DNA from: a virus
IMG/VR virus record: IMGVR_UViG_3300035698_011883
Span: 1-41,357 of that record
Strand: one strand, 5' to 3'
Length of the DNA: 41,357 bases
Shown: piece after piece, positions 279-40,413 of the stretch
How the letters are laid out: each line of letters opens with the position of its first letter
Position numbering within the stretch: the first letter of the stretch is position 1
Program-made: the position numbers and the translations under genes
The notes under the pieces: generated by a model
Seen by the model: only the letters and a program-made list of their open reading frames with translations
Told to the model about the DNA's origin: nothing
The model's database searches: none

Positions 279-629
279 TTAAAACTCTCTCGTTTCTGTT
301 TCTACTATCTCATAATCAAAGCTTATAGAGCCCGACATATCGTTTTCTGTGACATACCAAACTGTGCAGTAAAGGCATTTATTACGTGAATTTCTTAATC
401 TGTAAAACCCTCGGTAATAAGTATGTTTCTGCTTTGGCTCTATGCTTTCGTAATACTGTACATAATCGACCGAAGTTGAAAGGCTGACCTTATCTAAAAG
501 TTGTGTATAAATCACGCCATATTCATTCATGTAAATATAACAACCCTCTCCCCAGTGAGAAATTCTTAACTTCATTCCATTTACTAACGCAATCAATGCT
601 TCTTTACCTGAGTATGTTTTGTCGCCCAT
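279..629 (-). CDS. hypothetical protein, paralogue of its upstream neighbour
   Basis: A 116-residue protein. The N-terminal part (YSGKEALIALVNGMKLRISHW, then GCYIYMNEYG) follows the pattern of a widespread small phage domain: a short helix, 'G-x-K/L-x-R', an aromatic residue, and a Y-I-Y-x-D/E strand. The C terminus ETETREF is identical to that of the next gene upstream, and the middle also aligns (SVDYVQYYESIEPKQKHTYYR against SGVEYTEYIEPKTKKTYQR), so the two arose by tandem duplication. ATG 629 directly follows the upstream stop, with GAGGGAG as Shine-Dalgarno sequence inside the upstream ETREF codons. The N-terminal pattern faintly recalls DUF2829/Tad2 (anti-Thoeris) proteins, but that is only a resemblance. 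Function unknown. Confidence 0.75.
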   Translation of the reverse strand: MGDKTYSGKEALIALVNGMKLRISHWGEGCYIYMNEYGVIYTQLLDKVSLSTSVDYVQYYESIEPKQKHTYYRGFYRLRNSRNKCLYCTVWYVTENDMSGSISFDYEIVETETREF

Positions 630-1043
630 TTAAAACTCCCTCGTTTCTGTTTCTATCACTTCCCAGTTTGAACTTGCAGCGTGTGTATGTACAGCATGCC
701 AGTCCGAGGTGTAAATAGTATCGTTAGGCGAGTCTTTAAACTTGTAGAAATATCGTTGGTAAGTTTTTTTTGTTTTTGGTTCTATGTATTCTGTGTATTC
801 TACTCCCGAAAGAACTTCGCAGCCCTGTAAATTTTCGTCTAAAATAGAGCCATGAATTTCCATGTAAATAAATTCTTTTGGTCTAAAGCGTGAAGTTTTC
901 AACTTCAAACCACTGGCCAACGCTATCAATACCTCTCTACCTCTGTATGTTTCTGCTGACACTTTTACTCCTTGTTGAAAGTTATTTAAAACATCAATCA
1001 AGTCCTTATTTTCACGAATATCTATGTCATAATTGCTTGTCAT
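630..1043 (-). CDS. hypothetical protein, paralogue of its downstream neighbour
   Basis: A 137-residue protein with an N-terminal extension of about 30 residues, followed by the same domain as the 279-629 gene (YRGREVLIALASGLKLKTSRF, FIYMEIHG, EYIEPKTKKTYQR) and the same ETETREF tail. ATG 1043 overlaps the stop of the upstream membrane-protein gene in an ATGA arrangement, implying translational coupling. Its final codons carry the ribosome binding site of the next gene. Function unknown. Confidence 0.75.
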   Translation of the reverse strand: MTSNYDIDIRENKDLIDVLNNFQQGVKVSAETYRGREVLIALASGLKLKTSRFRPKEFIYMEIHGSILDENLQGCEVLSGVEYTEYIEPKTKKTYQRYFYKFKDSPNDTIYTSDWHAVHTHAASSNWEVIETETREF

Positions 1044-1387: not shown

Positions 1388-1855
1388 TTAAACGTGACGC
1401 TTAACCATATCTAGAAGATCTTTGTTAAGATCTTTGCTTTCGCCAAGTTCATCTACGATTATTCTTAAAGCCATCCATGTGCCATCAAAACCCTTCTCGT
1501 GCCTATCACTGATGCTACCTCCGCTACTCTCGATTTTATCTTTTAGGTTACGAAGCACACCATGACTTAAACCTACGGCTGCAATAACAGCATCGAGCAG
1601 GGAAAGACTTACGGTTACTTTCTTTTCATCCCCCTTATCATCTCTGTATTCGCTCTTCTTCTGACCTTCTTTAAGCTCTGACTCTATTTCTTTAAGCTCT
1701 GACTCTATTTCTTCTTTGGCCTCTTTTAAGGCTTGTGCAATTTCATCGGAATCTAAACCAAGAGTACCACCTAATTTACTCAAGGTACCTTCAAGACCCT
1801 TAAACAAAATATCACGAATCTCTTTCCTAGACTTTCTATTAGAACTTACTTGCAT
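1388..1855 (-). CDS. hypothetical helical protein with internal repeat
   Basis: A 155-residue, charged, mostly helical protein. Residues 50-66 contain a tandem peptide repeat (EIESELK twice) encoded by a 19-nt direct DNA repeat. The C-terminal half (SLSLLDAVIAAVGLSHGVLRNLKDKI, then FDGTWMALRIIVDEL) looks like a folded helical domain. ATG 1855 lies inside the end of the upstream XRE regulator gene (17-nt overlap), so the two are probably co-translated. This could be a partner of the regulator, as in two-gene control modules, but that rests on position alone. No family recognised. Confidence 0.7.
   Translation of the reverse strand: MQVSSNRKSRKEIRDILFKGLEGTLSKLGGTLGLDSDEIAQALKEAKEEIESELKEIESELKEGQKKSEYRDDKGDEKKVTVSLSLLDAVIAAVGLSHGVLRNLKDKIESSGGSISDRHEKGFDGTWMALRIIVDELGESKDLNKDLLDMVKRHV
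1677..1714 (-). repeat. 19-bp tandem direct repeat within a gene
   Basis: Two adjacent copies of a 19-bp unit (CTCTGACTCTATTTCTTTA and CTCTGACTCTATTTCTTCT on the + strand) encode the repeated EIESELK peptide. Copy number could vary by slippage, but the unit is not a multiple of three, so a change of one copy would shift the frame. Confidence 0.7.
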
Positions 1856-2087
1856 ACATCGCTCCTACATCTGCTTTATACGTTGCTACTATTTTAGCTT
1901 TAGCTACACCATGCTTAATCAAAGCCTTAGCTACACGAGGGGAAATACCACATATCTCTCGCTCTATGTTACTGATGTACTGGTTCTTTAAACCTAGTGC
2001 CGAGGCAAACATACCCTGACTCAAACCCTTCTTCTTTCTTAGTCTCTTAAGCAACAATGCTTGTTTTTTAAACGTAGCTTCTTTCAT
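1839..2087 (-). CDS. XRE/Cro-type helix-turn-helix regulator
   Basis: An 82-residue DNA-binding protein made almost entirely of one HTH_3-type domain: LLKRLRKKKGLSQGMFASAL, then LGLKNQYISNIEREICGIS, with 'SQ.MFA..LGL...YISNIER' as the helix-turn-helix. I chose ATG 2087 because AAGGAG lies 9 nt upstream. The longer frame from 2111 would start inside the ribosome-binding region. It directly follows the DNA polymerase gene and is probably made with the replication operon. Likely targets are the palindromic sites in the divergent control regions (around 6929-6944 or 12698-12719); this is inferred. It probably controls the early-to-late switch or autoregulates the operon. Confidence 0.85.
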   Translation of the reverse strand: MKEATFKKQALLLKRLRKKKGLSQGMFASALGLKNQYISNIEREICGISPRVAKALIKHGVAKAKIVATYKADVGAMYASKF

Positions 2088-2101
2088 GTGCGTACTCTCC
2101 T

Positions 2102-3907
2102 TTAAAAGCAATACCCCTTTCGGGTATCACCATAGTTATATTTACCATTTTCAACATCTACTTTTAATTTTAAACCTGACTCAGATATATAGGTATTCTC
2201 CATGATGTCAACCAATCTAGTTTGTAAACAAGCATCGGCAGCATCTATTTGAAAAATAATAGAATCATGTACTGAAAGGCTAATGAAGCTCTCATTTTCT
2301 GCGGAGTCTTTACTTAAGAATATATCGCAGGATACTATTTCCTCTTTAACAATGTCGGCCAAGCTTCCCTGGATATAGTGGTTTAATATCTTATAGTTAT
2401 CCGCTTTAGATAGCTCTATGATACGTCCCTTTATGTTTCTAACAGAACCCCATACAGCCAAGCCACTTTTAAGCTGCTGTTCTAGCGCCCATACTTTAGG
2501 TAAGCTTTGTTTAATTTTTAACACAACTTGTCTAGTTTTTTCTATCGGCATCTTAATTAAATTAGATATCCCACGAACACCCGACCCATAGATTAGTGCG
2601 AAGATAGCTGTCTTAGCTATAAACCTATCTACATTTACCATCTTAGCTAAGGTTTCATGCATGTCTTCATCTCTTTTAAATCTCTCAACCATATTCATTT
2701 GCTTTGAAATGTCGTAGGTCAACCTAAGTTCAGCCTGACTATGATCTATAACTAAAAACTCTTTACCTTCAAAGGGTATGAACGATTTTTTTACGTCATT
2801 CCCAGCTCTGGAAGGTAGGTTTAACAGTGAGGGATTTCGAGACGAGATACGACCTGTTTTAGCAGCGTACTGGTTAAAGTCTGTGTGAATGACCCCATCT
2901 TCGTGCATAGTCCAGAGTTTCAAGTAGAAAGACTTAAGTAGTTTGTGGTGATGACGGTACTCTAAGACCTGCTTGATCTCCTCGATCTCAGGGTACTTCT
3001 CTAAGATTGTAGACTTAAATAAAGGCTCGTGCGTTTTAGGATTGTACTCCACTGGCAAGCCATGCTTCTTAAAGACTGGGAGTAGGTAGGTTTTACCGTC
3101 CGTAAACCCTACACCTAAGTTGTTTATAGCCTCGGTTCTACCCTGTATATGGTGGTTTATTCTCTCTTCTACGTGCGCTAAATCGACCTTTATACCCCTT
3201 TTTTCCATCTTATATAGCACCTTGGTAAGCTTTACCTCGGTTCTAACTAGGTCAGCGGCTACTCTAGACTTCTGAAGGAAGTCGATTTGCTTTAAGCCTA
3301 TGGTCAGTGAGAGCCATGCATCTCTACAACCGTAAGGCTGGATAATACTAAACGGCACTAGGTCATAGTGTGCAAGCTTGCCCATCTCAAATCCAAATGC
3401 ATATTGTTTAGTGTATAGACCGTTCTTTTTTATATACTCTTCAACACGTTTATCTTTAGGGAAACCCCAATACACGCCTTGGCTTTCGAGTTTACAGTCT
3501 TCAGCTTGACCCACGATAAGTCTGTGCAGAGCATGGTTACAATATACATTATATTCGAGAGGATCTAAGCCTATCTGGTCGAGTCTAAGCATATCGAACT
3601 TAACGTTAGCTATAAAAACACGCTCGGCATCTTTTAAGTAATGACGTAGCACTTCTGCTACATCAATCACATTAGCTACACCCACCCATGGTGCATCTTT
3701 GTACGACTTCATATTAAAGTAGAGCGTGTACTTACCATCAGATAACTGATAGGCGAAAGCTCTGTCTTTAAACCTAACTCCGTATGTCTCAGTATCAAAA
3801 CCGAAGTTAGAGGACTCGCCAAAGTCTGGTGGGATATCACTCAAGAGAGGGTTTATGAATATATGGCCTGTTTCCATTGAGTTACTCGTCAACGCTATCG
3901 GCTTCAT
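2102..3907 (-). CDS. family A DNA polymerase with 3'-5' exonuclease domain
   Basis: A 601-residue replicative polymerase. The exonuclease motifs are present: DTE at 38-40 (Exo I), NVKFD at 101-105 (Exo II) and Y192-D196 (Exo III). The polymerase motifs are also complete: TGR at 351-353, motif A DHSQAELR starting at D388, motif B R428-xxx-K432-xxx-F436-xxx-YG, and motif C HDS at 547-549. There is no 5' nuclease domain, so the length matches short phage polymerases. Position 436 corresponds to E. coli Pol I residue 762 and is Phe. ATG 3907 overlaps the upstream SSB-like gene by 26 nt; an alternative ATG at 3877 would start 4 nt after it. Polymerase and exonuclease both look active. Confidence 0.95.
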   Translation of the reverse strand: MKPIALTSNSMETGHIFINPLLSDIPPDFGESSNFGFDTETYGVRFKDRAFAYQLSDGKYTLYFNMKSYKDAPWVGVANVIDVAEVLRHYLKDAERVFIANVKFDMLRLDQIGLDPLEYNVYCNHALHRLIVGQAEDCKLESQGVYWGFPKDKRVEEYIKKNGLYTKQYAFGFEMGKLAHYDLVPFSIIQPYGCRDAWLSLTIGLKQIDFLQKSRVAADLVRTEVKLTKVLYKMEKRGIKVDLAHVEERINHHIQGRTEAINNLGVGFTDGKTYLLPVFKKHGLPVEYNPKTHEPLFKSTILEKYPEIEEIKQVLEYRHHHKLLKSFYLKLWTMHEDGVIHTDFNQYAAKTGRISSRNPSLLNLPSRAGNDVKKSFIPFEGKEFLVIDHSQAELRLTYDISKQMNMVERFKRDEDMHETLAKMVNVDRFIAKTAIFALIYGSGVRGISNLIKMPIEKTRQVVLKIKQSLPKVWALEQQLKSGLAVWGSVRNIKGRIIELSKADNYKILNHYIQGSLADIVKEEIVSCDIFLSKDSAENESFISLSVHDSIIFQIDAADACLQTRLVDIMENTYISESGLKLKVDVENGKYNYGDTRKGYCF

Positions 3908-14658: not shown

Positions 14659-14696
14659 ATTTAAGGTAATTTAAGAATTGTAGGGGCATGGTGGTC

Positions 14697-14739
14697 CATG
14701 GTTATCTGTCGCCATGGTTATGGTTATCTGTCGCCATGG
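14697..14739 (+). repeat. tandem repeat GTTATCTGTCGCCATGG x2
   Basis: Two exact 17-bp copies at 14701-14717 and 14723-14739, 22 bp apart. Each is flanked by CCATGG or CATGG, so the unit is also an inverted repeat of CCATGG. Confidence 0.8.
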
Positions 14740-15047
14740 GACAGTGTGTTGATGACAGATGAGAGACAGATGAGAGACTTTAAAATTGTATCTGTCGCCT
14801 TAATTAATTCAATGTTTCTAGGGATTTAGAGATTTTAAGACAGTATAAGACAGATAATATTTGGTTTCGAAAAACAGTAGTAGAAAAAAACCCAGATGCA
14901 ATACAATAGACATGAGTGAATAATGCCCAGAATAGGGATATATCTTATATCTCTCTCACCGATTATTCTTGGCGGACATTTTATCTGTCGTCATCTGACA
15001 TTATACTCTTAAGCCCTTGATTTAATTGAGTTATATCAGCGACAGAT
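14704..15047. repeat. eight copies of GACAGAT / ATCTGTC in both orientations
   Basis: ATCTGTC begins at 14704, 14726, 14790 and 14983. GACAGAT begins at 14754, 14765, 14849 and 15041. The extended form is ATCTGTCGCC or its complement in several copies. Such a dense two-strand array suggests protein-binding sites. Confidence 0.7.
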
Positions 15048-15099
15048 GCCTTTTTTCATCCGACGCCACTGTCACACGAGCACACCACAATCCAAAGGA

Positions 15100-15155
15100 C
15101 CACTGCTGCTTAATTAAGCTTAATTAAGAGATCCACTGCTGATTTAATTAGCAGT
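15100..15155. repeat. 20-bp palindrome and direct repeats
   Basis: CTTAATTAAG occurs twice back to back (15109-15128), forming a perfect 20-bp palindrome. It is preceded and followed by direct copies of CCACTGCTG (15100-15108, 15133-15141). The second copy starts another inverted repeat (ACTGCT...AGCAGT, 15135-15155). Confidence 0.75.
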
Positions 15156-15204
15156 ATATATAAGACCACACTTCATGGAGCCATGGTTTCGTGGCAAGCC
15201 CACT

Positions 15205-15311
15205 AATAGATATATACAATTCAAAGGACCATGGAGCCAAAGGTTAACTATTAAATAGATATATATACTTCAATGGGCCAAAGGATAACTGTTATCATTT
15301 AAATAGATATA
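15205..15311. repeat. imperfect tandem repeats of about 49 bp
   Basis: AATAGATATA starts at 15205, 15254 and 15302. The stretches between share AATTCAAAGGACC/ACTTCAATGGGCC, CCAAAGG and a TAACT element. Two full units and a partial third are visible. Confidence 0.65.
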
Positions 15312-15321
15312 ATAATATTAG

Positions 15322-15350
15322 TTGACTTATCAATTAGTTTAGTTCATAGT
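15322..15350 (+). promoter_or_regulatory. candidate sigma70-type late promoter
   Basis: TTGACT (15322-15327), a 17-bp spacer, then CATAGT (15345-15350). It lies about 320 nt upstream of the first late gene, and TTAGTTGA (15318-15325) overlaps its -35 element. With no phage RNA polymerase gene visible, host-type promoters are expected. Confidence 0.4.
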
Positions 15351-15376
15351 ATTTAAATAAACATTGAATTAAAACC

Positions 15377-15418
15377 AAGGAGGTCAAAGAAACATAACAT
15401 TATTAAAACAAAAAGATT
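15377..15418 (+). promoter_or_regulatory. orphan perfect Shine-Dalgarno with no usual start codon
   Basis: AAGGAGGTC at 15377-15385 is the strongest ribosome binding sequence in the window, yet no ATG, GTG or TTG follows at a useful distance. The sequence ACATAACATTATTAAA resembles the leaders at 13198 and 13573 (CATAACATGAGA) but with ATT in place of ATG. From that ATT the frame has seven codons and a stop. Confidence 0.55.
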
Positions 15419-15426
15419 TTAAAGAG

Positions 15427-15469
15427 CCTTGATTTTTATTGATCAAGGTGGAGGGGGACCCCCATTTTT
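15427..15469 (+). terminator. double hairpin with T-run in the late leader
   Basis: CCTTGAT (15427-15433) pairs with ATCAAGG (15442-15448). This is followed by GGGGGACCCCC (15453-15463) and ATTTTTATTT. The layout resembles an intrinsic terminator placed between the candidate late promoter and the terminase genes, so it could be a regulated terminator or a structured element near the packaging start. Confidence 0.45.
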
Positions 15470-15669
15470 ATTTCTCGTCCACTGCGTAAAGGCTCCCCCG
15501 AACCGAGGACCAAAACAAACCAATGATTTAACGCTTCGCATTGCACGAGCTCGTTTTTCCTCTGCACCAAAATTTTCATTCCCCGCCCACACACGAACGC
15601 CACAAAATAAATCAAGAATTGACGCAGCTCAAGAAGCATTATATTCTAGGTTGATATTACAATTTGAGT

Positions 15670-21449: not shown

Positions 21450-21668
21450 TTTATATTTAGAACTATATTTTACTTAAAGGTGAAGAGAGATAATCTTGTT
21501 ACAAGACCGAACTTCACCTTTCTTAATATAGGTCCGATTTCGGGTAACCTATACCAAGGTCACATAGGGACCCCTAGTGGATAATCCGACTTAGCGTTTA
21601 GAGTCTATTTAGACCCGACCAGAAGTTGGATAATCTAAGTTAAGACACAAAAGAAAAAACTTAACTTA
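21441..21668 (+). promoter_or_regulatory. chain of six hairpins in the capsid-gene leader
   Basis: Consecutive perfect or near-perfect inverted repeats on the + strand: AGTTCT/AGAACT (21441-21464); AAAGGTGAAG/CTTCACCTTT (21476-21521, with an inner CTTG/CAAG); TATAGGT/ACCTATA (21527-21553); CAC-TAGGG/CCCTA-GTG with a bulged A (21561-21579); GTCTA/TAGAC (21603-21614); TAAGTTAAG/CTTAACTTA (21636-21668). GGATAATC occurs twice (21579, 21628). The last stem ends 12 nt before the capsid Shine-Dalgarno sequence. Likely roles are termination of the scaffold transcript, RNA processing, or stabilising the capsid mRNA. Confidence 0.6.
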
Positions 21669-21690
21669 AACTTTTCATTAGGAGACTATG

Positions 21691-22662
21691 ATGTCTGATT
21701 TATTAAATATACCGAAACATTATGCCGATATGTTCATGGCGAATGTCTATCATAAAGTACAGCAAACACAAAGCGTATTAGGTTCTGGCGTTCGTAAAGA
21801 AAGTCATTCCACTGTTGCTGAGACTGTTTTTTATGATTGCTTCGACAAAACTCAAGCAAACCGCAGAACAGAGAGAGCGCAGAAAACAAAACTAGTTGAA
21901 GTTGGTCGTGACAGAAGAGCTGTTAGAGCTGACTGGTGGGATTGGGCTACTGTTATAGACAAGATGGATACAGCTAAAACTGTTCACTTGCCTGAATCTC
22001 CACTTGTTCAAGCGGCAACGTATGCATTTAACAGAACTAAAGACGAAGTTATTTATGAAGCTGGTCTTGGTGCTGCTTACGCAGGACAGAAGGGTACTAC
22101 TGTAATCGCTCTTCCTGTTACTCAAAAAATAGTAGCTCATGATGGTGCTATTACAGCGGCTATTTCTAACCTAAACATCAGAACTTTGGCTAGAATTAAA
22201 AGAATGTTCTGGGACAAAAACATCGGTACAGGTGCAGATCTTTACCCCAATGCAATGTTTCATATCGCTGTTAGAGGCGCTCAAATTGAGCAGATGTTGG
22301 TTGACCCAACTATCACTAGTGCTGACTATAACTCTCTAAGAGCTTTAGTTCGTGGTGATATTGATACATTTATGGGTTTTAAATTCCATATCTATAACGG
22401 TTTAGCGCAGGACGATACTCAGATTACTTATAGTAACCTTACTGGTGCTATCGGTTCAGGAACTAACACTGGAACTACTGTTTATGATAGATCTCTAGTT
22501 TGGTTTACAGATGGTATTGTTCTTTCTGCTGGGCAAGAGATGAGAGTTAAAATTTCTGAGCGTAGCGATTTGTCATACGTAAAACAGATTTACGCTGACA
22601 TGCATTTAGGTGCTACTCGAATGGAAGAAGAGAAAGTAATTGAGCTAATTGTTAAAGCTTAA
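21691..22662 (+). CDS. major capsid protein
   Basis: A 323-residue podovirus capsid protein. It is placed directly after the scaffold gene, and features fit HK97-fold capsids: an N-terminal arm (DLLNIPKHYADMFMANVYHK), KTVHLPESPLVQAATYAF, 'DEVIYEAGLGAAYAGQKG' and a C-terminal domain ending 'YADMHLGATRMEEEKVIELI'. It forms the icosahedral shell. ATG 21691 is preferred over the adjacent ATG 21688 because AGGAG then has 6-nt spacing. The long structured leader and strong ribosome binding site fit high expression. Confidence 0.9.
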   Translation: MSDLLNIPKHYADMFMANVYHKVQQTQSVLGSGVRKESHSTVAETVFYDCFDKTQANRRTERAQKTKLVEVGRDRRAVRADWWDWATVIDKMDTAKTVHLPESPLVQAATYAFNRTKDEVIYEAGLGAAYAGQKGTTVIALPVTQKIVAHDGAITAAISNLNIRTLARIKRMFWDKNIGTGADLYPNAMFHIAVRGAQIEQMLVDPTITSADYNSLRALVRGDIDTFMGFKFHIYNGLAQDDTQITYSNLTGAIGSGTNTGTTVYDRSLVWFTDGIVLSAGQEMRVKISERSDLSYVKQIYADMHLGATRMEEEKVIELIVKA

Positions 22663-22672
22663 TAAATGTTCT

Positions 22673-22704
22673 GTCCCAAATTAAATTTTGGGACTTAATT
22701 TATC
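22673..22704 (+). terminator. hairpin terminator after the capsid gene
   Basis: GTCCCAAA-TTAAAT-TTTGGGAC is a perfect 8-bp stem, followed by TTAATTTATC. The U-tract is weak, so it probably lets part of the transcripts through to the tail genes and sets the capsid-to-tail ratio. Confidence 0.6.
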
Positions 22705-22732
22705 TAAACCAAAATTATAGGAGAATTTCAAA

Positions 22733-23203
22733 ATGGCTATTTTTAAAGGTGTAAATCATTCAAAGGCATATGTTAATAAGCCTTCTGAGTTGATTAAAAA
22801 GAACGAAAAATCTGGCGAAGTGTGTTTTGCGTATGATAAAATCACAGTTCCTGTTGGTATTTTAGTGAATGACGTATTCTTATTGCAGGAGCTTCCAGCT
22901 CAAGCGAAGATTTTAAGAGTAAAGATTTTGACTAAAGGTGCTGCTGCTGGAGTATTAGACGTTGGATACTCTAACTCTTCTTTGCTTGGGGATAAAGACA
23001 ACCTTGTTGTTGGTGACCCTGATGCATTTATTGATGGTGGTGTTACAGGTGCGGCTATTTTTGAGCTAAACATGCCTGTTACACTTCCAGGATACTTAAT
23101 AGAATTCAGCAAACCTGTTTTCGCTACTGTTACTGTAATGACTTTACCTAATGGTTTTGCAGGAACAGTTGTTGAGTTACTGATAGAGTACGTAAATAAG
23201 TAA
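22733..23203 (+). CDS. putative head decoration / minor structural protein
   Basis: A 156-residue protein between the capsid and tail tubular A genes. Beta-rich, with repeated strand patterns (DKITVPVGILVNDVFLLQEL, AKILRVKILTKGAAAGVLDV, NMPVTLPGYLIEFSKPVFAT). AGGAGA precedes ATG 22733. Podoviruses often carry small capsid-stabilising or head-surface proteins here, which is the basis of the call. No family recognised. Confidence 0.6.
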   Translation: MAIFKGVNHSKAYVNKPSELIKKNEKSGEVCFAYDKITVPVGILVNDVFLLQELPAQAKILRVKILTKGAAAGVLDVGYSNSSLLGDKDNLVVGDPDAFIDGGVTGAAIFELNMPVTLPGYLIEFSKPVFATVTVMTLPNGFAGTVVELLIEYVNK

Positions 23204-23272
23204 AATTTAGTTATCCCTTTGGTACTTAGGTGTCTCCTTTTGCCATTGGGATTTTAAGATTGGGGTTCACCT

Positions 23273-23869
23273 ATGTCTATCTATACTGATGTTGCTATTG
23301 TAAACATGGCTTTAGCGGATATAGGAGAATCTCCTATTTCTGCGTTAGATCAAAATTCAAGTACAGCTAAAAAAGTAAGTTCTATGTACGATATTAAAAG
23401 AGATGAACTTCTCCGTATGCACCCTTGGGGATTCGCAAAGAGCAGAGTAAAGCTTGCATTAGCTGCGGTAGTTCCTTCATGGGGCTATACTAAATACTTT
23501 TTAATACCTCACGATAACTTAAGAATCTTAGAGCTAGATACTGGCCAGTTAAGATTTAATAAAGAAGGACGTTATATTGCTACAGATGCCTCGGATGTAG
23601 GTATGTTATATATCAGGCGTGAGACTGATACGAGCATTTATGATGCTAGTTTTGTATCCTTACTATCAAAATAACTAGCGGCTGACTTAGCACAAGCTAT
23701 TAAAGGCTCTCGAACACTTCGATTTGATTTAATGAACGAGTTTAACAAAGATTTAGCTTTAGCACGAGGTTATTCTGCTAACGAAGGTACACCTTTAAGC
23801 TCTATGGAGTTTGAGGGTGACGGAATTGTTGCTGCCTCTGCTTTGTCTGGACGAATGAGTAGTTACTAA
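23273..23869 (+). CDS. tail tubular protein A (T7 gp11-like), interrupted by in-frame TAA
   Basis: The frame runs 198 codons from ATG 23273 to TAA 23867-23869, close to the 196 residues of T7 gp11, but codon 134 (23672-23674) is TAA. Upstream sequence fits the family (ADIGESPISALD, LLRMHPWGFAKSRVKL, EGRYIATDA, LYIRRETD). The segment across the stop, FVSLLSK-[stop]-LAADLAQAIKGSR, aligns exactly with the family pattern 'F-x-x-L-x-x-x-LA-x-DLA'. Nothing else is damaged and the end still couples to the next gene (TAATG). Gp11-type proteins form the ring between connector and tail and are essential. Readthrough, a recent AAA-to-TAA mutation or a base error are the options. GGGG precedes the start. 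Confidence 0.85.
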
Positions 23870-26397
23870 TGTCTAAATTCACGAAGTCATTTACAGATTT
23901 TTCATTAGGAGAGATAGATAATAGAAATATTAACATAGCTATTAACTCTCAGAACGCAAAAGCGTGTTCACTGCTTGATAACATGAGTCTTACTTCTACT
24001 AGAGGACTTGAGAGACGTACTGGAACTTTAAAAGTAGGTAAACCTAAGTATCCTGTAGATGCAGATAACTTTAATGTCGTTACTAAGTCTTTGTTTATAG
24101 GTAAAGGTTTATCATTTGTAGGCATGATGTACGTTGTAGACACTGCGGATCTTTCTGCTGCTCAAATTCTTACTATGGCTGATGATTCAGGCTTTGGTTA
24201 CACACCTCCTGCGGCTAAGTGTTTAGTTGTAGATTGGTATAGGTCAGTTGGGTTTACAGATACATACTTAAATAGCAGTGCGATATACATGGACGCAGAT
24301 AATCCAATTCCAGATACTTGGATTGACCTTGTACCCAGGGTAAACAGTAATGGTTGGCTTGATTTATACGGTTTTAACTTTAGTTCATTTCAATCCTTTG
24401 TAGTTGTTACTCATAACACAGGTGCTTTTGAGCCATTTGTGTTTACTTACCTTTCAGCATCTAACGAGATGTTTTGGTTTCTACACAAATTCGGTTTAAC
24501 TGTATCTGACACTACTTACTGGCCTTCGATAACTACGAGTGGTGCGTTTGCTGTTCCTTTTGAGGAAGCTAACCGTAATCCTAACATGGCATTAAGGTTA
24601 GAGAGGCTTAATGATGTTTTTGTTAAGGTAATGCCTCAGTGGTATAACAAAGCAACGTCTGCGTATGGGACATGGCGAACTACATCTAACATAGGGGACC
24701 AGTCCCCGAAACCCCATCCGTTATCGAGGCGCATTGATTACTTAAGAGTAACTATCTTAAACAATACTTACATATTAAAGTACGTAGGCAGTGAGACGGC
24801 TAATGCTTCAGGTGTATATGTCAGGAATACTGTTTTAGATACACGAGATGCGCATATGTTTTCTATCGTGATAGAAGCACCTTCTACTAATGACCTATGG
24901 ACTGTCTTAAGTACCTTTAAAGTTACATCTGATTTTAACCTCGAGGCGTTTAATGTCGTAGACGGTTTCCCAGACAATAGTATTTTTTACGATCAACGTC
25001 TTATCTTGTCTAGAAATGGTCGTCTCTTTAATTCTGCTACAGGTAACGCATTTTTGTTTAATCAGTACAGATTCCCACAGACCACTATAGCAGAGTCATC
25101 TATTTACACGATAGCTCCACCAGCTACTCCTGGGCCACCAGCGTTGAGGACCTTACCTTTACTTATTAGTTACTCAGGTACCAAGGTCACTTCAGATCCG
25201 TTTGACTTCGTACCTTTATCAGATGCGCTTGTAGATATCTCTTGGTTAAGCAAGTCAGACAAAATTGAGTACGGTAATTACTCAGAGATTAACAACATAT
25301 CTGGTTTAGAGGATAGCTCATATTCATTTACATCTATTAAGTCTATTCAAGGGGCTAAATACGGTAGTAAAAAGTCTATAGCTATAAAAGCAGGTAACGA
25401 CACTATATTTATTGGTGGTTCAAACAAGACTGTACGTAATTACCATTACAATGGTCAGGTAAGAACTTTTGTATCGAACGATTTAAACGATTTAAACCCT
25501 TCTATTATCTCTCACCAGATAGCAGCGACAACAAACACTGATGATTTAGAAGTGGTTGAGTTATCTTACGACCAAGACAATACGATTATATACGCCATTC
25601 TAAAACCTACCAATGCTTTGATAGGGATTACTTACGACAGACTTGCTAACAGGTCTGCGTGGCATAGGGTTTCTTTAGGTAGTCAGGTGAGCACTAATGT
25701 AACTGTGCATAGCACATCATTCTTAAGAAACGATAAGTCTGATAGCTATGTGTATTTGACTACTCTTCGAGAAGGCGCATTTCATTTAGAGAAATTCGCA
25801 AAGAGATACAACAAAATAGAGATGAACGCATTTGCAGTTTTTGGGAGTGGGGTGCAAGTCGATGACTTGCCTTATTACTTAGATTTTAGTAAAGGATTTG
25901 TAGGTCCAACGAGTGATACTTGGGCCGTAGGAGATGATTATGCTAACAAGACAGTTGATGTGCTTGCTGATGGGTATTGGATTAGTGGCGTTGCCGTTAA
26001 TGGTAGTGGCGTACTTCAAATTGATAGGGCTGTTAGGACTTTAGTAGTAGGGTTTCCATACAAGCTTAGGTTTAGAAGCCTTGATGTAGAACCTGCTTTA
26101 GGTAACGAGCCAGGTAGCACACTGCACCATACTAAATCCATAAATTACATTCATTTAAGATTAAACAAGTCTTACGGCGGCGAGATATGTTCGCACGATT
26201 TAAGTTTACTAGAAAAAATCCCTTATGATGAAGACAACATGATAGTTGACGATACATTAAAGTTGTTTACAGGTAATATAGATATACATTTATCTCAAGA
26301 CTCTAGTCCTGAGAACTTCGTGTACATAGAAAGCAGTGCGCCATATCCTTTTGAGCTATTATCCATAAGCATTAAAGGTGAAGTTAATGAGAGGTAA
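23869..26397 (+). CDS. tail tubular protein B (T7 gp12-like)
   Basis: An 842-residue tail tube protein. The N terminus has the family signature: 'FTDFSLGEIDNR', then 'KACSLLDNMSLTSTRGLERRTGT', a form of 'F..GE..p...R.....y...c..l.N....p.Gg..rR.GT'. The remainder is beta-rich with SDKIEYGNYSEIN and RTLVVGFPYKLRF segments typical of the nozzle protein. It forms the tail nozzle below the gp11-type ring and carries the fibres. Translation is coupled to the interrupted gp11-like gene by TAATG with no separate ribosome binding site, so full synthesis may depend on ribosomes that finish that gene. Confidence 0.9.
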   Translation: MSKFTKSFTDFSLGEIDNRNINIAINSQNAKACSLLDNMSLTSTRGLERRTGTLKVGKPKYPVDADNFNVVTKSLFIGKGLSFVGMMYVVDTADLSAAQILTMADDSGFGYTPPAAKCLVVDWYRSVGFTDTYLNSSAIYMDADNPIPDTWIDLVPRVNSNGWLDLYGFNFSSFQSFVVVTHNTGAFEPFVFTYLSASNEMFWFLHKFGLTVSDTTYWPSITTSGAFAVPFEEANRNPNMALRLERLNDVFVKVMPQWYNKATSAYGTWRTTSNIGDQSPKPHPLSRRIDYLRVTILNNTYILKYVGSETANASGVYVRNTVLDTRDAHMFSIVIEAPSTNDLWTVLSTFKVTSDFNLEAFNVVDGFPDNSIFYDQRLILSRNGRLFNSATGNAFLFNQYRFPQTTIAESSIYTIAPPATPGPPALRTLPLLISYSGTKVTSDPFDFVPLSDALVDISWLSKSDKIEYGNYSEINNISGLEDSSYSFTSIKSIQGAKYGSKKSIAIKAGNDTIFIGGSNKTVRNYHYNGQVRTFVSNDLNDLNPSIISHQIAATTNTDDLEVVELSYDQDNTIIYAILKPTNALIGITYDRLANRSAWHRVSLGSQVSTNVTVHSTSFLRNDKSDSYVYLTTLREGAFHLEKFAKRYNKIEMNAFAVFGSGVQVDDLPYYLDFSKGFVGPTSDTWAVGDDYANKTVDVLADGYWISGVAVNGSGVLQIDRAVRTLVVGFPYKLRFRSLDVEPALGNEPGSTLHHTKSINYIHLRLNKSYGGEICSHDLSLLEKIPYDEDNMIVDDTLKLFTGNIDIHLSQDSSPENFVYIESSAPYPFELLSISIKGEVNER

Positions 26398-26400
26398 ACT

Positions 26401-32442: not shown

Positions 32443-33750
32443 GTGTCTACAACAAATGAGATTTCAAAAAATGATATAGTTGTAGGTAATGGTGTTCTCA
32501 CCATTATACCTTTTCAATTTAATTGGAATCATTTTGATAGTAATATTGAAATAGTAGTAACTACTATTAACACTGCTACTTTGGTGCAGACAGTATTAGC
32601 GGTAATTACCGATTACAGTATTGTAGTTGAGGACCCATTTTTAAGTATAACTTCACCAAGCATTGTACTAGTAGTTCCTTTACCTACAGGTACAAACTTA
32701 CTTATTGAAAGACGTATTTTGAACTTACAGAGTTTAGATTACAATACGAGTAGACCCTTTCCTGCTACTACTCATGAGCGTTTAGTTGACAGAATTTATA
32801 TGAGTTTGTCAGAGCTAAAAAATAAGTTAGCAAGGGTTCCACAGTTTGATACTTTCGCAGCAGGTATAACTCACGCTGCATTGCCAGCACCAGCAGACGG
32901 TATGTATTTAGCTTGGGATGGCCTTACAGGTAAACTAAAGAATACTGGGACTACTATAGACGCAATTTTCTTAACTGCTACGGGTATGACCTTTAGTACA
33001 GCGACATCAACTTTAACATCAACGAACGTGCAAGCTGCGATTGATGAAGCGGATGTTAAAATTGAAACTAACAGAACAAACATTGCTACGAACGTAACAA
33101 ATATCGCTACGAACGTAACGAACATCGCAACAAACGTAACGAACATTGCAACAAACGTAACAGACATTACGGCTTTAACAGCGATAGTTAATTCATTATT
33201 CCCTATCGGGAAAATAGATATGACTATATCTTTGGTAGCGCCAAACCCTTTGAACTGGTTGAGACTTAGTGGTGGCGGTGCTCAGACTTTTTCAAAAACA
33301 GGGGCGTACGCAAATTTATTTAATCACTTGAATGGCCTAGGATTTTTTGCACCTGCATCTCATGATATATTTACAGAGTCAGGCGCAGATTTTACTATCG
33401 CAGATTTTGCCGCTTTATCACCAAGAGGGACTGGAAGTAGTGTTGTCTTAGGCAACACAAAGTTTGGACCTTCACTGGCTTCTGTACAAGAAGATCAAAT
33501 GCAGAGAATTACTGGGCGTGCTGATATTGATGCCGCACGTTCTTTTAGTAGCAATAGTGGCTCTGCGGCAGGTGTGATGACTCTTACTAGTTCTGCTAAT
33601 GCGGGTCGAGTTGCTGGCACCATCAATAATGGGACACCGCTAGCGATATCTTTTAACTCCTCTGACTCCCCTAACGCGAGAGTATCAGGAACGACAGATG
33701 GTGAAACTCGTATCAACGCTTTTGGTGTTCATTACTGGATTAGGTTTTAA
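32443..33750 (+). CDS. tail fibre protein with T7-type anchor and collar-like tip
   Basis: A 435-residue protein starting at GTG 32443 with AAGGGG upstream. Residues 1-130 match the T7 gp17 N-terminal anchor (NGVLTIIPFQFNW, PLPTGTNLLIERRI, NTSRPFPA, DRIYMSLSELKNKL). A trimeric shaft follows, with four copies of NIATNVT at about 213-240. The C terminus begins FPIGKIDMTISLVAPNPLNW and resembles tail-collar or receptor-tip domains (GWL-type start, 'LFNHLNGLG', 'ADFAALSPRG', ending 'NAFGVHYWIRF'). It binds the tail by the anchor and the host by the tip. The next gene has the same anchor. Confidence 0.88.
   Translation: MSTTNEISKNDIVVGNGVLTIIPFQFNWNHFDSNIEIVVTTINTATLVQTVLAVITDYSIVVEDPFLSITSPSIVLVVPLPTGTNLLIERRILNLQSLDYNTSRPFPATTHERLVDRIYMSLSELKNKLARVPQFDTFAAGITHAALPAPADGMYLAWDGLTGKLKNTGTTIDAIFLTATGMTFSTATSTLTSTNVQAAIDEADVKIETNRTNIATNVTNIATNVTNIATNVTNIATNVTDITALTAIVNSLFPIGKIDMTISLVAPNPLNWLRLSGGGAQTFSKTGAYANLFNHLNGLGFFAPASHDIFTESGADFTIADFAALSPRGTGSSVVLGNTKFGPSLASVQEDQMQRITGRADIDAARSFSSNSGSAAGVMTLTSSANAGRVAGTINNGTPLAISFNSSDSPNARVSGTTDGETRINAFGVHYWIRF
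33079..33162 (+). repeat. four tandem 21-bp repeats in fibre shaft
   Basis: Four in-frame copies of a 21-bp unit encode NIATNVT four times. The codons vary at third positions (GCT/GCA, AAC/AAT, ACG/ACA), so the protein repeat has been kept by selection. Seven-residue periodicity fits a trimeric coiled coil or beta-helical stalk. Confidence 0.85.
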
Positions 33751-33763
33751 AGGAAATTAAATT

Positions 33764-35998
33764 ATGGCTACAACAAATGAAATTGCAAGAAACGTAATAG
33801 TTGTTGGTAATGGTATCGTCACTACTATCGCTTTTCAGTTTAATTACCTACAAGGTGACCCGAACGTAGAGATAGTAGTTACCAAGAAAGATACCACAAC
33901 TTTAATTGAGACAGTTTTAGTTTTAAACACTAATTACATTATCTCAGGTAGCTCAATTATTTTAAGTGTACCTTTACCTACAGGCACTAACCTACTTATC
34001 GAGAGAAGAACAAGAGGTCTTCAGGTTTTAGATTATGAGACATCACGACCATTTCCTGCTGAAGTTACAGAGGATAGCTCTGACCGTATTTACTTTCTTC
34101 TATGTGAACTTAGGTCTGTACTAACTAGAGCTGCTTTTGTAGGTAAGTTTGAGGACCCGAACTTAAGAGTGAATTTACCGACTCCAGTGAATGGTCAATA
34201 TCTAGCATGGGACGGAATCGGTGGTAACATAAAAAATGCCAACACAACAATAGATCCATTGTTACTGACTTCAGTTGACATGACATTTGATAATACAACT
34301 TCAACTTTAGCGTCTGCAAACGTGCAATCAGCTATTGATGAATTAGACGTTAAAGTTGAAGCGAACGAGCTAACACTACTTAGCAAAGTTGAGACGTCAT
34401 CTAACTCAGGCGCAGGTCAGGGATTAGCCTTACCAAAAGTAGGTGTGGACTTACCTTTTAAATCTATAGCCTCACAGACAGAACTTTTAGATGTCATAGC
34501 TACACCTACAGAAGTAAGATTTGATTTACCTACAGAGGGTGACGGCTTCGGGGATGTTGTAACTTTAAAGAGAATTGTAACTACAGGGGCATGGGCTTAT
34601 CAGACTGTTGTTGAAAAGAATAACTGGAGTATAGCTTTCGGTGACGGTGTGTTTGTTGCAGTTTCTAATGGCGGCACGAATAGATGTATGCGCTCTACAG
34701 ATCTTGGTCTTACCTGGGCCGCTGTAGTTATTCCTGTTCAGGATTATCTTACTCTTACTTTTGGTAGTGGTGTTTTCATAGCCGTAGCAAATAGTGGGAC
34801 TACACAGATTACAAGATCTACAGACTTAGGTTTAACATGGTCTACAGTTGTGACGACTAACTTGGCCTTTGCACAAATTGTGTTTAACAAGGAAGTAAAC
34901 AATTTTTATACAAGACATGCAGGGGTAGTAAGAGTTAGTGATGACTTAGGTCTCACATGGTCGGCTTTCACTACTACATTCTCAGCGACGAGCATTACTA
35001 CAGGGAAGGGTTTACTTCTATGCTTTAGGGCTAATAACGTAGAAGTTTTTGATTTAGTAAATGGTACACCAAGCTTTTCTGTCGTAACATCGGGAACCCT
35101 TAGTAATTGTTTTTATGGGAATGGGATTTTTGTAGCAAATAACTTCGGCAGTATTTCCACATCACCTGATGGGATTAACTGGACATTTAGAGCTTTCTTT
35201 ACACTTACTGGTTTTGATCAGGGCGTTTACGGTAATGGTCTTTTTGTAATGATGCGTGATGAGGATGCAGTAAGATGCGTAGTAAGTAGGGACGGCATAA
35301 CCTGGACCTCACTATCTATAGCAGCGACGACTTGGAAGACAATCGCTTTTGGTGAAGGTGTGTTTGTAAGTTTACCGAACACTGGTGCAGCCACAGAGTA
35401 CAGTGCAAGGTTAGTTCCTACTGTTGTAAAAGAATTAGGGACATCTACCAGGGAAGGTATTCAACTGCGTGGTCCTATCTTTTGTGTTGCAAGTCAAAGA
35501 ACTACAAACGGCACTGGCTCTAGTCAAGATATCCCTGCGGATGACGGTCAGTTTGTTGTTGGAGGCGCTTCTCGTTATAGAAGACTAAACAATTTTTGGG
35601 TATCAAAAGATTCGTCTGACTATTTTAGTTTTGTTGATTCAAATACAGAAACCGCAGGAATTGTAATAAATAAAACAGGTAACTATAGACTGGAATATGT
35701 TGGTAGTGTATCTCGAACAGGGCTTGTTACTAAAGAGGTAATAAGAGAAAGAACGGCTGTAGCTGATCTTAGAGTAGCACATTCTAAAACTATCCTTTCA
35801 ACAACGGGTGGGGCTATCGCCTCTGAAACGTCAATAAGTTGTGCAGGTGTAGCTCAACTAAACGCAGGAGATAAGGTTCGTGTGCGGAGCTTTTTAGTTA
35901 CGAAAACAGGTAACGTAGCTTACGGAAATATTTTTGTAGCGGATGGACAATCTTTGGATTTTTGTACGTTAACTATATCTTTAATAGAGGACCTGTAA
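33764..35998 (+). CDS. second tail fibre / receptor-binding protein with Asp-box repeats
   Basis: A 744-residue protein. Residues 1-130 repeat the anchor of the preceding fibre (TTNEIARNVIVVGNG, FQFNY, PLPTGTNLLIERRTRG, TSRPFPA). A middle region of about 270-540 contains five Asp-box or related motifs: STDLGLTW near 311 and 352, SDDLGLTW near 391, SPDGINW near 466 and SRDGITW near 507. Between them are repeated 'FG-x-G-VF-VAV-x-N' strands, a pattern of sialidase-like beta-propellers. The C terminus is beta-rich. The propeller would bind or cleave a surface glycan; no sialidase catalytic residues can be assigned. AAAGGA precedes the start. Confidence 0.85.
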   Translation: MATTNEIARNVIVVGNGIVTTIAFQFNYLQGDPNVEIVVTKKDTTTLIETVLVLNTNYIISGSSIILSVPLPTGTNLLIERRTRGLQVLDYETSRPFPAEVTEDSSDRIYFLLCELRSVLTRAAFVGKFEDPNLRVNLPTPVNGQYLAWDGIGGNIKNANTTIDPLLLTSVDMTFDNTTSTLASANVQSAIDELDVKVEANELTLLSKVETSSNSGAGQGLALPKVGVDLPFKSIASQTELLDVIATPTEVRFDLPTEGDGFGDVVTLKRIVTTGAWAYQTVVEKNNWSIAFGDGVFVAVSNGGTNRCMRSTDLGLTWAAVVIPVQDYLTLTFGSGVFIAVANSGTTQITRSTDLGLTWSTVVTTNLAFAQIVFNKEVNNFYTRHAGVVRVSDDLGLTWSAFTTTFSATSITTGKGLLLCFRANNVEVFDLVNGTPSFSVVTSGTLSNCFYGNGIFVANNFGSISTSPDGINWTFRAFFTLTGFDQGVYGNGLFVMMRDEDAVRCVVSRDGITWTSLSIAATTWKTIAFGEGVFVSLPNTGAATEYSARLVPTVVKELGTSTREGIQLRGPIFCVASQRTTNGTGSSQDIPADDGQFVVGGASRYRRLNNFWVSKDSSDYFSFVDSNTETAGIVINKTGNYRLEYVGSVSRTGLVTKEVIRERTAVADLRVAHSKTILSTTGGAIASETSISCAGVAQLNAGDKVRVRSFLVTKTGNVAYGNIFVADGQSLDFCTLTISLIEDL

Positions 35999-39903: not shown

Positions 39904-40413
39904 TTATTTTTCCTTCTCTTTACCAATAATATAATCAGGTCGTCGCTGACCAACTTGCGGAATAATCGCCAAAATTGACCAGCCTTCATCTAATCTATAT
40001 TGTAAGTCTTCAGTACAACAATTTGATAAACAATCTACATACTTAAAATGTATTATACTGTGGTCAATCCTAACTTGCGACGAACCCATAAACTCTTTCA
40101 AACTATCTGCTCGGAGTTTATATCCATCTTCACTTTTAATAACCAAAGGCTTTATGCGGTTCACATTTATAAACGTATGATATGTGTCTCCAACATATGC
40201 CCACAACGCTTCGGGCATATTTGCAAGGTCTGTAATTATTCTTTCACCTGTTTCATCTGGACCGAAGCTTACTTGCCAGCCACGCTTTTTTTCGTAATTA
40301 ACGCCACGATTAAATACAAGGACAATACCTAACGCTGACAGTAAGCGAAGCTCTTTCATGTGTTCTTTCTTTATGTTCGTCTTAGTATATATAGTAGATT
40401 TAAGTCTTAGCAT
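39904..40413 (-). CDS. hypothetical protein (169 aa)
   Basis: Starts at ATG 40413 in a TAATG overlap with the upstream gene; an internal ATG (residue 19) is an alternative. Residues 20-35 (KELRLLSALGIVLVFNRGVN) are moderately hydrophobic. A GWQVSFGPDETGERI segment, CLSNCC and a Lys/Glu-rich tail (IIGKEKEK) follow. No family recognised. Confidence 0.65.
   Translation of the reverse strand: MLRLKSTIYTKTNIKKEHMKELRLLSALGIVLVFNRGVNYEKKRGWQVSFGPDETGERIITDLANMPEALWAYVGDTYHTFINVNRIKPLVIKSEDGYKLRADSLKEFMGSSQVRIDHSIIHFKYVDCLSNCCTEDLQYRLDEGWSILAIIPQVGQRRPDYIIGKEKEK

Follow-up and report, generated by a model that had tools for sequence, protein, structure and literature searches.

An in-frame TAA in the tail tubular protein A gene

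How is a TAA to be understood when it lies inside the otherwise intact frame of a gp11-type tail adaptor gene, a kind of gene whose product, as established for T7, is required for tail assembly? The question is raised by a whole virus record of 41,357 bases, which is the stretch of DNA analysed here and is referred to as the window. Reading the frame from the ATG at 23273, we find 133 residues, a TAA, 64 further codons and a terminal stop that overlaps the start of the next gene (Table 1). The preliminary description had reported the TAA at codon 134 with the frame open beyond it, the TAATG coupling and the stop context AAA-TAA-CTA, all of which we confirm, with the surrounding codons being TCA AAA TAA CTA GCG. 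The neighbouring genes, which comprise a terminase-like gene, a portal, a major capsid protein, a tail tubular B-like protein and an internal virion protein, form a podovirus-type structural cluster.

Table 1. Coordinates of the interrupted gene, its parts and the gene that follows
Feature	Position	Strand	Remarks
Tail adaptor / tail tubular protein A gene (T7 gp11-like)	23273..23869	+	198 codons with the internal stop read through
In-frame TAA	23672..23674	+	codon 134 of the tail tubular protein A gene
Codons past the TAA	23675..23866	+	64 codons with C-terminal family homology: second half of helix 125-144, helix 147-168, low-confidence tail
TAATG junction	23867..23871	+	stop of tail tubular A overlapping the ATG of tail tubular B
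Tail tubular protein B-like tail protein	23869..26397	+	PHROG 376, intact

Next, we examined the identity of the gene. In profile searches the full read-through frame matched PHROG 394 (tail protein) with an E-value of 6.8e-42 across residues 5-173, whereas the part before the TAA by itself gave 3.7e-32; the Pfam family Tube (PF17212) was found above its cut-off over residues 10-102. An AlphaFold model of the read-through frame, built with 7 sequences, had a mean pLDDT of 79.7 and a pTM of 0.71, and Foldseek matched it with a probability of 1.00 to the connector or adaptor proteins 8ck1 (8ck1_E; Carin-1), 9efk (LME-1), 7box (T7 gp11) and 5mu4 (KP32 TTPA). Together with the PHROG 376 tail protein gene that follows directly, these matches uphold the earlier assignment of the gene to tail tubular protein A. 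The placement of codon 134 within the segment F-x-x-L-x-x-x-LAaDLA also stands, with F127, L130 and L135 occupying the conserved positions, the last of which is nearly invariant across the family. Coding on both sides of the TAA is indicated by the PHROG 394 match and by the alignment to the relative L002 (65% identity), which spans all 198 residues with no gaps.

Among the records compared, the stop is confined to this one

The preliminary description had proposed an alignment with gp11-like homologues, which we carried out. We observe that the two nearest relatives found, L002 and L005 (49% identity), both carry TAT, encoding tyrosine, at the aligned codon 134, while in more distant members the position holds varied residues and in none of them a stop. 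A family-model search showed that the window is alone among 18 records in having an internal stop (0 of the 17 related records), the adaptor genes of the relatives all being single frames. With its TAA at codon 134, the gene of the window is therefore classified as an interrupted copy of the family gene. The same search found one copy of the gene per record in all 18, with no second copy in the window. Across the 54 ORFs of the window, which comprise 12,789 codons, the TAA at codon 134 is also the sole internal stop. Taken together, the uniqueness of this stop among the ORFs, the tyrosine codon in the nearest relatives and the absence of a stop from the 17 related records mark the TAA as a single, unshared change, and since both L002 and L005 carry TAT, one substitution suffices. 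The simplest history, judging from these sequences, would thus be one codon altered by one substitution.

We also searched more widely for the gene and for the phage itself. A survey of 299 genomes gave 15 matches, two of which contained one TGA each. In G006 this TGA is probably the gene's own terminator, because the other model showed none in the same gene; the second case was G264. A scan of genome contigs returned one distant relative. The same phage was not matched in other virus records, from which very near ones may have been withheld, by a pattern that spanned the site and left the third codon base open, nor did blastn of phage genomes with 21600-26400 yield a match.

An isolated nonsense change as the most probable explanation

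These observations point very strongly to an isolated point nonsense change. Either the consensus or assembly would contain a base error, or the population that was sampled would include a genome that is defective or a minority variant. Under this explanation, TAA would have arisen by one base substitution from a sense codon (one for tyrosine in the nearest relatives) in an ordinary gp11-type adaptor gene, the source being an error in the metagenomic consensus or a defective or minority genome. No special decoding would be involved, and the functional protein of the lineage would be an ordinary full-length adaptor. We infer that the ancestral codon 134 was a sense codon and that a viable population lacks the stop. 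The preliminary description had listed a base error and a defective genome among its possibilities, and this is the part of it that the comparison favours, with the stop present in only this one of the 18 records and a sense codon in the relatives.

The expected frequency of such changes was also calculated. Of the single substitutions possible in these ORFs, about 4.9% would create a stop, which corresponds to about 0.19 nonsense codons per genome at 1e-4 errors per base and to 0.02 at 1e-5. At expected rates of about 0.02-0.19 per genome, one nonsense codon is therefore unsurprising in a large scan of metagenomic windows. On the other side, no further broken gene was found in the record that would independently point to poor quality.

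Readthrough and suppression

Alternatively, programmed or tolerated readthrough, or a host suppressor tRNA, could let the gene yield a full-length adaptor despite its TAA. The frame past the TAA is intact with its homology kept, and the stop is followed by C, which can weaken termination. However, none of the 17 relatives conserves the stop, and the same context, AAAATAACTA, terminates the predicted ORF 39904-40413 (-), with TAAC ending further ORFs of the record too. In addition, compared with shuffled sequence the RNA 3' of the stop shows no better folding (z = -0.23), with no stable or unusual fold found downstream of the TAA, and the window contains neither a tRNA gene nor an Rfam match. 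The efficiency would also have to be high, as the T7 adaptor is present at about 12 copies per virion. With no other internal stop, 38 ORFs ending in TAA, AAAATAACTA serving as a terminator elsewhere and no tRNA, Rfam element or fold, programmed readthrough, suppression and recoding are left without positive support. Readthrough and suppression, both raised in the preliminary description, are thus improbable, and slightly more improbable again is a population in which the TAA is genuine and in which efficient readthrough or host suppression, recently gained in the lineage, supplies a working adaptor.

Synonymous-codon conservation was also compared with the two nearest relatives. After the stop it was apparently higher against L002 (29/44 versus 37/79, p = 0.06) and was not higher against L005 (11/35 versus 28/59). 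With conservation apparently raised against one relative and not the other, we do not claim an element embedded past the TAA.

Truncated or split products and reassignment of TAA

A functional split protein, in which the 133-residue product serves as adaptor by itself or together with a C-terminal piece that is initiated separately, had also been suggested, and an in-frame ATG is available downstream at codon 154. Nonetheless, no ribosome-binding site is evident by eye ahead of codon 154, the C-terminal 64 residues alone match no family in PHROG and Pfam profile searches, and all relatives are single frames. In the AlphaFold model, residue 134 falls in the middle of a high-confidence core helix (residues 125-144, pLDDT about 90) rather than at the edge of a domain. 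Since the TAA would halve this helix and remove the next one (147-168), a working 133-residue adaptor is unlikely on the predicted structure, and the truncation should destroy the protein. We consider a functional split very improbable, more so than readthrough.

Reassignment of TAA to an amino acid in the phage or its host, for which the one in-frame TAA could speak, has a negligible probability, as 38 of the 54 ORFs terminate in TAA, no other internal TAA occurs despite 478 tyrosine codons and a tRNA gene is absent from the window; stop usage refutes it in practice, in agreement with the earlier view that global recoding is unlikely.

Other features of the record

Several further features were observed in the window. 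Between gene blocks, about 1 kb (14659-15663) has few or no convincing ORFs and contains an exact 20-base direct repeat (14698-14717 and 14720-14739, spacing 22 bases); this is possibly a regulatory or origin region. At 32443-35998, two consecutive genes of 435 and 744 aa share similar N-termini and a 39-base repeat at 85%. They look like paralogous tail fibre-like genes, and a run of TNIATNV-type repeats lies in the first. At 279-1043 (-), adjacent ORFs of 116 and 137 aa are alike in sequence and 3' ends, with a 50-base repeat at 76%, apparently reflecting a tandem duplication. A small ORF at 1839-2111 (-) resembles, by eye, a helix-turn-helix regulator. No end repeats of the record were found.

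Comparison with known systems

Overall, the observation of an in-frame TAA is correct and its explanation is ordinary. Efficient UAA readthrough in an essential virion protein, were it real, would be a striking finding. As matters stand, the case is chiefly a caution: before recoding is deduced from a lone stop in the record of an uncultivated virus, that stop should be compared with reads and with relatives. We found no literature specific to this case.

The gene resembles the T7 gp11-type adaptors (PHROG 394, PF17212; 8ck1, 9efk, 7box, 5mu4) in length, fold and conserved residues across the whole frame, and like them it sits between the genes for the capsid and tail tubular B. What sets it apart is a single in-frame TAA, at codon 134. 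Programmed stop-codon readthrough is known in viruses, for example in the A1 extension of phage Q-beta, and the open frame after an in-frame stop is similar in the tail tubular A gene. In contrast to such readthrough, the stop here is not conserved in relatives, a stimulatory element was not found in the window, and the part past the TAA belongs to the core of one domain instead of forming an optional extension.
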